64,000 nt of DNA from Chryseobacterium endalhagicum (GTDB lineage Bacteria; Bacteroidota; Bacteroidia; Flavobacteriales; Weeksellaceae), in contig NZ_JAELVM010000001.1 in the NCBI RefSeq assembly GCF_016745235.1, positions 137,856 through 201,855 of the forward strand, given 5' to 3'. A program made the position numbers and the translations under genes. Below the pieces are notes generated by a model. The model saw nothing but the letters and a program-made list of their open reading frames with translations, made no database searches and was not told where the DNA came from. The first letter of the stretch is position 1. Each line of letters starts with the position of its first letter. This document shows, piece by piece, positions 6,258-9,588 of this stretch.

Positions 6258-8129
6258 TTAATCACCATGCTGCAATAGCTCCAACGCCTTCATCATATCA
6301 ATTCCCTTTCCAAGAACAGGTTTAAATAAATCTCCCTTTTCCTTGATTATTTCCAACGCATTATCAATCGTAAAATCCGTCGGCTTCAAACCTGGCTTTA
6401 CTTCATCCCACTCCAGAGGCATAGAAACGGAAGCTCCTTCTTTAGGCCTTAAACTGTAAGCACTTGCCAAGGTCTGTCCGGTTCTGTTTTGAAGATAATC
6501 AAGATAGATTTTTTTATCATCCCTTTTCTGTAAACTTCTTTCCAAAGTAGTAATTTTAGGAAGCTTTTCATTCACCTGTTTCATCAGGATATGGGCAAAA
6601 TCCTTTACCTGGTCGAAATCATATTTTCCACCCATCGGAATATAGATGTGAATTCCCGTACTTCCCGAAGTTTTGCAGTATCCTTTAATTTTAACCGAGT
6701 TTAAAACCTCATTCACCTGAAGGGCAGTTTCAATCACATCATCAAATGAATTTTTCTTGGACGGATCGAGATCCAGTACCAGATAATCAGGATGTTCAAG
6801 GTCCGGCAGGGCACTGTTCCACGGGTTTAAATCGATGCAGCCCAGATTATTCAGATAAGCCAAAGTTGCTTTATCATTACAGTACACATAATCTATATAT
6901 TTATCGTTGGATTCAGAATAAACCTTTGTTGTTTTAATCCAGTCCGGCATATGGTCTCCCGCATCTTTCTGGTAAAAGCCCTGTTCTTCAATTCCGTTGG
7001 GGAAACGGTTCAGAGATAAAGGTCTGTTTTTCAGGTAAGGCAGTATATAAGAAGCAACGGACTGATAATATTCAATCACATCACCCTTCGTAATTTCATC
7101 TTTTGGAAAATAAATTTTATCCTGATTCGTGAGTTTTACCTTGTGCTTATCCAGTGTTATTTCCTTCTCTTTTTCGGTGTTCTCAGTTTTTTTTGACGAA
7201 GTTTTCGATTTCATTTCTTTAGATTTTACGTTGATTGGACTGATGGTAATTTCTTCAGGTTCTTTATCTTCCCGGATGGCCACAAAAACAGGGTGGCGGT
7301 AAATGCCATCTTTTGTAATCTCCGAATATTTGATCTCGCAGACCAGTTCAGGTTTCGTCCAGGTTACAGGCATATTGGTTTTCGGAACCGTTTCAAAAGG
7401 CGACGTTTTTATGATCAGCTTTTGAAGCCTTCCGTAAAGCTGCTGCAAAGATTCATTATTAAATCCCGTTCCTGTGTGTCCGCAGTAGATCAGCTGCCCG
7501 TCAATATATTTCCCCAGAATAAGTGCTCCGAAACTTTTTCTCGAGCCTCTGGGTTCCGTAAATCCACAGATAATGGCTTCATCCGTATTGGTGAATTTTA
7601 TTTTGAGCCAGTCCGGACTTCTGTGGTTTTCTATATATAAACTGTCTGCTTTCTTGGCGATCATTCCTTCCAGTTTCATCTTTTTCATTTGATTGAAGAA
7701 AGCCAGGCCGTTTTCGAGAATGTGGTCGCAGTATTTAATGATGTCTGTTTCTGTTAAAGCTTCCTTTAAAAGTTCTTTCCGCTGGAGAAGAGAAAGATCT
7801 TCTGTAGAATGGCCGTTCAGCCAGAGGAGATCAAAGACCTGATAAGTTAAAGCCAGGTCAGGATTATCACCAATTTGCTGTAAAAGCTGGAAATTAGGTT
7901 TTCCATGTTCATCGTAGGCGACAATTTCTCCGTCAAGAACCATTTTATGCTGCTGCTGTTCAAGATCTTTGGTGACCTTTTCAAATTTCGATAAAAATGA
8001 AATTCCGTTCCGGGAATAGAATAGGGGATGGGTATGGCTGAGATCTGCAATGGCCCGGTAGCCGTCCCATTTTATTTCAAAAACCCAGTCTTCATCATCA
8101 AATGCTTTTTCAGAAGATTTGGCCAGCAT
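6258..8129 (-). CDS. ligD: LigD ligase and polymerase domains (downstream frame)
   Basis: 623 residues from the first ATG in this frame, though the protein sequence really continues about 36 codons upstream to the A9 slip site. The ATP-dependent ligase domain has the nucleotidyl Lys in FEIKWDGYRAI (residue 20), motif IV EGMIAKK, motif V WLKIKF and an OB fold to about residue 290. A Lys/Ser/Glu-rich linker (about 300-330) leads to a primase-polymerase domain with LDLDPS, the SGSTGIHIYIP block and KIYLDYLQN. LigD seals double-strand breaks with Ku. All catalytic residues appear intact, so decay is limited to the frameshift. Initiation at 8129 would remove the upstream lead-in to the ligase fold. 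Confidence 0.8.
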   Translation of the reverse strand: MLAKSSEKAFDDEDWVFEIKWDGYRAIADLSHTHPLFYSRNGISFLSKFEKVTKDLEQQQHKMVLDGEIVAYDEHGKPNFQLLQQIGDNPDLALTYQVFDLLWLNGHSTEDLSLLQRKELLKEALTETDIIKYCDHILENGLAFFNQMKKMKLEGMIAKKADSLYIENHRSPDWLKIKFTNTDEAIICGFTEPRGSRKSFGALILGKYIDGQLIYCGHTGTGFNNESLQQLYGRLQKLIIKTSPFETVPKTNMPVTWTKPELVCEIKYSEITKDGIYRHPVFVAIREDKEPEEITISPINVKSKEMKSKTSSKKTENTEKEKEITLDKHKVKLTNQDKIYFPKDEITKGDVIEYYQSVASYILPYLKNRPLSLNRFPNGIEEQGFYQKDAGDHMPDWIKTTKVYSESNDKYIDYVYCNDKATLAYLNNLGCIDLNPWNSALPDLEHPDYLVLDLDPSKKNSFDDVIETALQVNEVLNSVKIKGYCKTSGSTGIHIYIPMGGKYDFDQVKDFAHILMKQVNEKLPKITTLERSLQKRDDKKIYLDYLQNRTGQTLASAYSLRPKEGASVSMPLEWDEVKPGLKPTDFTIDNALEIIKEKGDLFKPVLGKGIDMMKALELLQHGD

Positions 8130-8200
8130 CGGCCTGATAAATGAGGTAAGCTTCTTTTCATTCGTTAGAGAATTGAAATTTCTGAATCTCTTTTCCGAAG

Positions 8201-8803
8201 TTATGACTTCTTTTCTGCCTTTATTTTTAGGCTTTTTTTTTCCTCTAAAAATTTCGTTACCAAAGATTTTGGTGATGTGTTTTCTTCAGCATCATAGGGA
8301 CTTTCTGCAAAATCATCTTTATGTTTAATGAGCAGCCACGCATTGTCTTCGCTGTTTTTCATTTTAACAAGAGCGAATTCCCCTTTCAGTTTTTTTCCAT
8401 GTAAAATGAATTTTAATGAACCGGCATGAAGTTCTTTTAAAAGCTCTTTTTCGGGGGGTATTTTGGTTTCCTCCAGCGGTTCGTAGGTTCCGCTGTCCCA
8501 GACTTCCACCTGTCCGGCTCCGTAATTGCCTTCCGGAATGTTTCCTTCAAAATCTTTATAATCATAAGGGTGATCCTCTACCATCATGGCCAGACGTTTG
8601 TCTTTGGGATCAAGAGAAGGACCTTTCGGAACGGCCCAGCTTTTCAGAACACCATCCATTTCCAGCCGGAAATCATAATGAAGCCTGGACGCCGCATGCC
8701 TCTGAATCACAAAAATAAGTTTGTCCTTACTTTTTTTCGTTTTCCCTTCAGGTTCTGTAGTTTCATTGAACTTCCGTTTTTCGTTATAATCTTTCAGAGC
8801 CAT
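8201..8803 (-). CDS. ligD: LigD 3'-phosphoesterase domain (upstream frame)
   Basis: 200 residues forming the phosphoesterase (PE) domain that usually starts Bacteroidota LigD. Visible family residues are RHAASRLHYDFRLEMDG (metal and phosphate ligands His, His, Asp, Arg), VEDHPYDYKDFEG and GNYGAGQVEVWD. PE trims 3' phosphates and ribonucleotides before sealing. The last residues, after the slip site at 8233-8241, are frame-specific (SLKIKAEKKS) and probably not native. The ATG overlaps the Ku stop codon by one base (TAATG), so Ku and LigD are translationally coupled. Confidence 0.82.
   Translation of the reverse strand: MALKDYNEKRKFNETTEPEGKTKKSKDKLIFVIQRHAASRLHYDFRLEMDGVLKSWAVPKGPSLDPKDKRLAMMVEDHPYDYKDFEGNIPEGNYGAGQVEVWDSGTYEPLEETKIPPEKELLKELHAGSLKFILHGKKLKGEFALVKMKNSEDNAWLLIKHKDDFAESPYDAEENTSPKSLVTKFLEEKKSLKIKAEKKS
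8233..8241 (-). other. A9 homopolymer slip site in ligD
   Basis: Nine A's on the coding strand, read as GAA AAA AAA AGC in the phosphoesterase frame, which contains the slippery heptamer A-AAA-AAA. A -1 shift here leads directly into the ligase frame, whereas the zero frame ends ten codons after the run at 8201. Confidence 0.7.
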
Positions 8804-9588
8804 TATGATGCAGATTTAGATTTTGAATTTTGTAAACTGGCTTTTAACTGAGCCATAAGATCAATCACTTTACCCTCTTTGGCAGGTTCTGCTTTTTTAG
8901 CTTTAATATTCTTACCTTTTGCTTTCTGTTTGATGATTTTCATGAGGGCATCAGAATACGTGTCTTTATACATTACCGGGTCAAAATCCTGGGAAAGCTG
9001 TTTGATAAGACTTACCGCCATTTTTACTTCTGCCGGTTTCGGGGCTTTCTTAGCCGGGATCTTTAAATCTTTATAATCTCTGATCTCCTGATCAAAACGG
9101 AGCCTGTTAAGGACCAGGATCTCATCATTATAAGGTCTGATCATCCCGATGGCTTCACTTTCACGGAGTACAAATGTGCCTATTCCTGCCATTTGTGTTT
9201 CCTGCAAGGCTTTAAGCAGAAGTCTGTAGGCATTTTCACCATTTTTCTGAGGCTCCAGATAATAGGGATTTTCAAAATACACACTGTCTACTTCAGCTTC
9301 TTTTACAAATTGGTCTATGGAAAGTATTTTTGTTTTTTCGGGGCTTGCCGCTTCATAATCCTCTTTATCAAGAACGATGTATTTATCGTCCATGAGATAT
9401 CCTTTCACAATGTTTTCCCATTTCACTTCTTTTCCCGTGCTCTCGTTGACTCTTTTAAATTTAATATTAGAAAAATCAGATTTGTCGAGCATATCGAGAT
9501 CCAGTTTTGTAGTTTCTGTGGCGGAGTAGATTTTTACGGGGATATTGACTAAACCGAATCCAATGGCGCCATTCCAAATTGCTTTCAT
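8803..9588 (-). CDS. ku: Ku protein, non-homologous end joining
   Basis: 261 residues, the normal size of bacterial Ku. The beta-barrel start MKAIWNGAIGFGLVNIPVKI is diagnostic; further family blocks are LDMLDK, VDSVYFENPYYLEP and the core QMAGIGTFVLRESEAIGMIR. The C-terminal tail is Lys/Ala-rich (GKNIKAKKAEPAKEGK), as in Ku proteins that contact DNA and LigD. Ku binds DNA ends as a homodimer and recruits LigD. It is the first gene of a two-gene leftward operon, Ku / LigD, and faces the Crp-like gene across a 144-base divergent intergenic region. Confidence 0.93.
   Translation of the reverse strand: MKAIWNGAIGFGLVNIPVKIYSATETTKLDLDMLDKSDFSNIKFKRVNESTGKEVKWENIVKGYLMDDKYIVLDKEDYEAASPEKTKILSIDQFVKEAEVDSVYFENPYYLEPQKNGENAYRLLLKALQETQMAGIGTFVLRESEAIGMIRPYNDEILVLNRLRFDQEIRDYKDLKIPAKKAPKPAEVKMAVSLIKQLSQDFDPVMYKDTYSDALMKIIKQKAKGKNIKAKKAEPAKEGKVIDLMAQLKASLQNSKSKSAS

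Follow-up and report, generated by a model that had tools for sequence, protein, structure and literature searches.

An A9 run at the phosphoesterase-ligase junction of Chryseobacterium ligD as a probable conserved site of programmed transcriptional slippage

The ligD gene of Chryseobacterium endalhagicum is spread over two reading frames that meet at a run of nine A's, and this run, situated in the linker that separates the phosphoesterase (PE) domain from the ligase domain, is probably a conserved site of programmed transcriptional slippage, yielding both a free PE and a full-length LigD. RNA polymerase at the run would sometimes add one A (or make an equivalent change), giving a mixed ligD mRNA, in which the unslipped message would encode a free phosphoesterase of 200 residues and the slipped message all of LigD (PE, ligase and polymerase), about 850 residues long. 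Since the run and the split were kept across the genus sample, while runs of nine or more A's (A9+) were avoided in other ORFs sampled from this genome, the arrangement represents more than chance.

Organization of the ligD locus

The stretch of DNA analysed (the window) comprised 64,000 nt of contig NZ_JAELVM010000001.1, and the features relevant to ligD, all on the minus strand, were as follows.

8803..9588, minus strand: ku, directly upstream of ligD (Pfam Ku, 5.2e-48)
8201..8803, minus strand: PE ORF, the LigD 3'-phosphoesterase domain, 200 aa, predicted unslipped product (Pfam LigD_N)
8204..8285, minus strand: stretch with no stop in either the PE or the ligase frame, containing the run (82-nt overlap, computed; locus L083)
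8230..8245, minus strand: conserved core GAGG-A9-GCC (alignment of 90 genes)
8233..8241, minus strand: A9 run, putative slip site (letters read directly; nine T's on the plus strand)
6258..8285, minus strand: ligase and primase-polymerase open frame, -1 relative to PE (Pfam domains, pN/pS)
6258..8129, minus strand: ligase ORF counted from its first ATG at 8129, 623 aa

The TAA of ku shared one base with the ATG of ligD (TAATG). The PE ORF matched Pfam LigD_N over residues 34-147 (7.3e-46), whereas DNA_ligase_A_M, DNA_ligase_A_C and LigD_Prim-Pol were matched in the ligase frame. Thus, the parts of a LigD of bacterial NHEJ, namely a PE, an ATP-dependent ligase and a primase-polymerase beside ku, were all present, spread over two frames. 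The 3' end of the PE frame reads GAG GAA AAA AAA AGC CTA AAA ATA AAG GCA GAA AAG AAG TCA TAA. An earlier reading made from the letters alone (the sequence-only reading) had described a PE frame that stops ten codons past the run and has A-AAA-AAA in the zero frame, and a ligase frame that stays open up to the run without a start codon in between; all of this was borne out. The ligase frame is open from 8285 to 6258, across the run, and its ATG at 8129 is not preceded by any ATG, GTG or TTG on the side towards the run. The sequence-only reading had also given a whole enzyme of about 860 residues; joining the PE and ligase frames does predict a full-length product, slightly smaller at about 850. 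The A9 falls about 40 residues past the LigD_N match, in the PE-ligase linker. Matching PE chains of solved structure include PDB 2lj6 and 3n9b (177 and 171 residues, respectively), and since the solved matches span 118-177 residues, a free PE of 200 residues can plausibly fold.

Conservation of the split within Chryseobacterium

The PE half was searched for in 98 genomes of the genus and matched in 82. With the eight lowest matches left out (intact second copies in G002, G009, G041 and G072; fragments in G009, G037 and G067), the junction table held 82 loci from 81 genomes, G001 supplying two. At 78 of the 82 junctions, ligD was split at A9 or A10 with the ligase at -1; in 71 this was an A9 in one codon phase, and the other seven had the same shift at an A9 or A10 differing in length, place or phase. 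Three junctions were intact and one, L131 (A8, in a genome 75% complete), was otherwise broken. Another collection, made up of 80 named loci, overlapped the genus sample; the same A9 split was present in 26 of its 28 Chryseobacterium-type loci (L003-L029 and L060), from species including C. oranimense, C. indologenes, C. gambrini and C. defluvii; the exceptions were L006 (intact) and L015 (A8).

Exact duplicates were removed ahead of all later counts. The Chryseobacterium-type set then consisted of 97 genes at at least 79% identity, 89 of which were split at A9 in one phase and three of which were intact. A phase-variable homopolymer would vary in length among close relatives, which is not the pattern of an A9 held in one phase in 89 of 97 genes. 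The sequence-only reading had named close relatives whose gene is intact with an A10 as a disproof of slippage. One gene fits that description (L150 in G013, intact through A10), and two further intact Chryseobacterium-type genes, L006 and L199, have kept A9 and are fused by another change, whereas 89 are split at A9.

In G002, G009, G041 and G072 the split gene was accompanied by another LigD-like gene, intact and about 909-929 residues long. Two truncated PE fragments of 80 codons, L165 (G067:C50) and L166 (G037:C1), end alike, in a TAA with a short A run after it, and are perhaps remnants of a second ligD.

Constraint on the run

Nine A's were invariant in all 90 non-duplicate Chryseobacterium-type genes, and G at -1, G at -2 and G right after the run each occurred in 99% of them; variable third codon positions start just upstream of the GAGG-A9-GCC core. 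Codon use was compared in 86 of the 90 genes, four with another PE length, the source gene among them, being left out. Across 66 conserved two-fold codon columns the commonest codon averaged 82%, and only four columns, which are consecutive, never varied in how they encoded the conserved residue: GAG GAA AAA AAA. The codon before GAA AAA AAA (8242-8245 region) was GAG in 85 of the 86 genes and AAG in L157, the G of codon 188 being invariant in all 86 although GAA is much the commoner codon in these genes (1426 GAA vs 192 GAG); the keeping of this G is odd and is not accounted for by the proposed slippage.

Split genes across the Bacteroidota

Samples from the family, the order and the phylum raised the number of loci read to 224, and 197 remained after 27 exact duplicates (over 550 nt) had been dropped: 150 split, 39 intact and eight with a PE but no ligase match. 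Sixty stretches from the wider samples were mostly split genes with some intact ones, so that split:intact proportions should not be taken as frequencies except in the genus sample, and because the genes are related, counts of this kind are not independent trials.

In 132 of the 150 split genes the ligase was at -1 and the junction run consisted of 9 or 10 A's. The run lay in phase 1 at 90 of these sites (89 A9, one A10), in phase 0 at 35 (31 A10, four A9) and in phase 2 at seven (four A10, three A9), and every one contained an in-phase A-AAA-AAA. Thus, as at known sites of transcriptional slippage, an A9+ run lies in an ORF overlap and the arrangement recurs in non-identical homologues. Among splits at at least 59% identity with the ligase at -1, 132 of 134 had 9 or 10 A's; between 59 and 79% identity, A9 or A10 occurred in 40 of 49 split genes, in other codon phases that all need the same shift. 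In the -1 frame, 25 of the 31 phase-0 A10 genes have a TAA that is completed by the run itself, and in 23 of these 25 the overlap is 25 nt, consisting of the run and the following 17 nt; the shift must therefore occur in the run or in the stretch just after it.

The 18 other splits (L015, L044, L049, L068, L069, L074, L196, L205-L208, L210-L216) were A8 or A12 cases plus distant genes with a short run or none. Six of them count against the proposed slippage in having the same offset with a shorter run, namely L074 (A8, 70% identity), L206 (A4, 61%), and L210, L212, L215 and L216 (48-51%); some of these six may be distinct genes that overlap, and certain of the 18 are perhaps truly separate ORFs. 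On a FastTree phylogeny of the PE with weak support (170 genes kept; duplicates, genes below 60% identity, genes with no ligase match and near-copies over 95% identical in the same state left out), parsimony placed 20 changes between split and intact.

Two loci outside the expected lineages were observed. L201 (G250:C1:687340-687930), from another family of the class, is a Chryseobacterium-like ligD with an A9 out-of-frame site in diverged flanks and looks like a horizontal transfer of ligD with its slip site. L071, in a gammaproteobacterial record (Candidatus Methylobacter favarea, NZ_CADCXN010000001.1), resembles the ligD of Bacteroidota and has its split at an A9 in phase 0.

Avoidance of A and T runs in other ORFs

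In mechanically called ORFs from 864 kb of the source genome (the window plus two 400-kb stretches), 10 A9+ runs were seen against 67 expected and one T9+ run against 17.5. The avoidance was gradual, with seen/expected ratios of 0.91 for A7, 0.57 for A8 and 0.17 for A9. In a second sample, the window and L003-L029, it was weaker (A7 51/84, A8 15/23, A9+ 5/15.5), and A9+ runs numbered 0 vs 9.0 expected in sister loci and 4 vs 14.1 in other Bacteroidota. The host thus avoids A9+ runs in its other coding sequence, less strongly so in the second sample, and homopolymer-run avoidance of this kind has been tied to slippage (PMC1088944).

The ligD run was the only A8+ or T8+ run joining two long frames in the 864 kb. 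No second slippage-joined gene was found there when a run of 8 or more A or T, an upstream frame of at least 100 codons ending within 40, and another frame of at least 100 were demanded. An A9 near an ORF end at about G000:C2:578873 was rejected, being placed five codons ahead of an ordinary stop without a long frame beyond. Separately, a reverse-transcriptase-like gene with a YADD motif in its translation (L250, G000:C2:1068635-1069708, minus strand) has three A9/A10 runs despite the avoidance elsewhere and is perhaps foreign.

Intact genes and the role of the free phosphoesterase

A run of A9 to A11 was also present in the linker of 26 of the 39 intact genes, and 17 of these 26 runs start at PE codon 189-195, the location of the run in split Chryseobacterium- and Epilithonimonas-type genes. 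Some intact genes (L032, L163 and L220) have a run that is one A longer or shorter than in their split sisters. KKK was written as nine A's in 17 of 27 intact-gene linker cases vs 4 of 56 in other ORFs of L003-L082 and the window (Fisher 1.3e-7); in the 864 kb of the source genome the figure was 3 of 89. Past the run in intact genes, the median distance to a stop is 6.5 codons in one shifted frame and 3.5 in the other, and the longer shifted frame has a median of 9 codons vs 18 at random codons, a value as low being obtained in 3 of 5000 draws. Because these frames close early, slippage in the intact genes would also yield a PE-only protein. The intact relatives with A9 to A11 would then have the reverse arrangement, in which the unslipped message gives the full-length enzyme and the slipped message the PE alone. 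It is tentatively proposed, as a possibility of real but limited weight, that Bacteroidota LigD is a 'frame-indifferent' two-product gene, in which selection retains the run and the nearby stops so that both proteins are made in either DNA frame, and lineages alternate between the arrangements of dnaX and of mxiE/tssM (see below), shifting only the ratio of the products.

Fused genes are rare in the Chryseobacterium-type set (three of 97) although one homopolymer indel suffices to make them, which argues for selection of the unfused state, and hence of the free PE or of LigD at a low dose; the free PE may act by itself. In the opposing neutral explanation, slippage rescues a tolerated frameshift, the run is kept just for full-length LigD, and the free PE is a by-product. 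It shares its mechanism with programmed slippage and disputes only whether the free PE has a job, so that the probabilities assigned to the two overlap and do not sum to one. The 20 parsimony changes, on their weakly supported tree, fit such a history, and the rescue of broken genes by slippage is known as well (PMC1088944). However, homopolymers easily gain and lose bases, which should often restore the frame, yet intact genes are so few in the Chryseobacterium-type set, and two thirds of the intact genes retain runs that they do not need, with stops close behind. A free PE that is purely a by-product is therefore considered unlikely, though it deserves some weight.

Polymerase slippage or ribosomal frameshifting

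The presence of 9-10 A's in all codon phases, the lack of a conserved structure, the lack of SD use and the avoidance of both A9+ and T9+ runs favour slippage by RNA polymerase. Of the two ways of joining the frames named in the sequence-only reading, transcript slippage has thus gained and a dnaX-like ribosomal -1 shift has been weakened, while the two products it had envisaged, a free PE and a full-length LigD, would be the likely outcome of the conserved slip site.

Programmed -1 ribosomal frameshifting of the dnaX/IS type on A-AAA-AAA within the run would also join the frames, and the heptamer is indeed in the zero frame, with GAGG conserved immediately 5' of the run and the direction uniformly -1 at 132 of 132 run sites. 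Since all of these sites need either one added A or a ribosomal -1 shift, they count against unbiased polymerase slippage, from which splits of the other sense would be expected; the only candidates for such splits are L044 (A12) and the A8 cases L049 and L196. The uniform direction would, however, also be expected if slippage mostly adds A's, as in tssM1. As to run length, 7 A's would suffice for the ribosome in phase 2 and 8 in phase 1, yet 9-10 are present everywhere, a comparison that includes only seven phase-2 sites and related genes. In E. coli dnaX an SD-like element sits 10-14 nt upstream of the slip site, whereas the GAGG of ligD abuts the run and is missing from sister A10 sites. 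The RNA of the source gene folds better than shuffles (z of -3.24, -2.15 and -1.11 for three stretches), but a common downstream structure was not found: in pseudoknot-free folding, RNAalifold on 18 genes gave 0 pairs, and single-gene folds of 12 relatives had z from -1.5 to +1.7 vs -3.24 in the source gene. Avoidance of T9+ runs along with A9+ runs is also not accounted for by a ribosomal shift. Finally, Bacteroidia ribosomes are reported not to recognise SD sites (PMC9976891). The ribosome as the agent that joins the frames is thus improbable, and the slip is more plausibly made by the polymerase, although the two could act together.

Two separate genes or an error in the run

A PE gene followed by a ligase-polymerase gene with its own internal start would need no slip, and some distant Bacteroidota do have a standalone PE ORF without a run (e.g. 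L050, L053, L211 and L213). The ligase frame is, however, under coding constraint upstream of its first ATG. In 89 genes (L111, without the anchor motif, left out of the 90), pN/pS over the 18 codons that precede the conserved Met was 0.24 in the ligase frame vs 1.75 and 1.17 in the others, comparable with 0.18 for the first 40 ligase codons and 0.16 for 50 PE codons. These values indicate translation of the linker in the ligase frame, ahead of the first ATG of that frame, and led to the rejection of separate translation of the ligase-polymerase as the principal reading. In addition, the interval from the run to the Met has no ATG, GTG or TTG in 68 of the 90 genes, the Met itself is embedded in the conserved motif FIKPMLAK, and two separate genes would leave the invariance of the run without explanation; this arrangement is very improbable. 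A reading error or fresh mutation, which the sequence-only reading had allowed for, or a phase-variable run has a negligible chance and is rejected for the gene set from the invariance of the run. Homopolymers are error-prone, and the A8 genomes L015/L131 and L196 may be such cases, but an identical A9 occurs in 89 non-duplicate genes, and phase variation predicts mixed lengths, whereas in the 97-gene set the unfused genes almost all have A9.

Implications and comparison with known systems

Full-text literature searches whose hits were judged by titles and abstracts, with supplements, preprints and most subscription papers outside them, found no report of slippage or frameshifting in LigD. Word searches found no 'LigD' in a survey of frame transitions (PMC3711429), where the one 'ligase' is a Mur ligase, no 'ligase' in the available part of a review (PMC5009743), and no 'frameshift' in an article on bacterial NHEJ (PMC7719229).

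If the proposed slippage is true, a DSB repair enzyme would be made whole only via a decoding slip in most sampled members of the genus and in other Bacteroidota, annotation may take their ligD genes as broken or as two genes, and cells are predicted to contain an end-trimming phosphoesterase in free form, its amount in a set ratio to that of the ligase. The repeated switches between fused and unfused genes would be a natural experiment on the origin and persistence of slippage sites.

The Pseudomonas LigD has the domain order PE-LIG-POL, and the domains and order of the ligD described here match it; the difference lies in the out-of-frame encoding. In E. coli dnaX, a -1 ribosomal frameshift takes place at six A's plus G with SD-like and hairpin stimulators, and ligD is alike in having an A-rich slippery site and two predicted products but unlike in that no conserved structure was found. 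In tssM1 of Citrobacter rodentium, an A11 run gives two length variants, with 10 to 15 A's arising from the A11 (PMC4256274). As proposed for ligD, the gene is interrupted out of frame by an A run and its long form is recovered by slippage; the short and long forms, as well as their ratio, are of importance. However, tssM1 is another gene in another pathway and was proved by mass spectrometry of RT-PCR products, whereas the case for ligD is comparative. Shigella mxiE is likewise an out-of-frame gene that slips to a long form (PMC1088944). The dnaX gene of Thermus thermophilus has an A9 at which transcriptional slippage gives the tau and gamma products (PMC1088944), and it resembles ligD in being a DNA-metabolism gene with A9 on the sense strand and with full and N-terminal products. 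The two differ in that T. thermophilus dnaX is an in-frame gene whose slippage produces the short form, whereas ligD of C. endalhagicum is out of frame and would slip to the long form, the in-frame arrangement of dnaX being found in some relatives of ligD.
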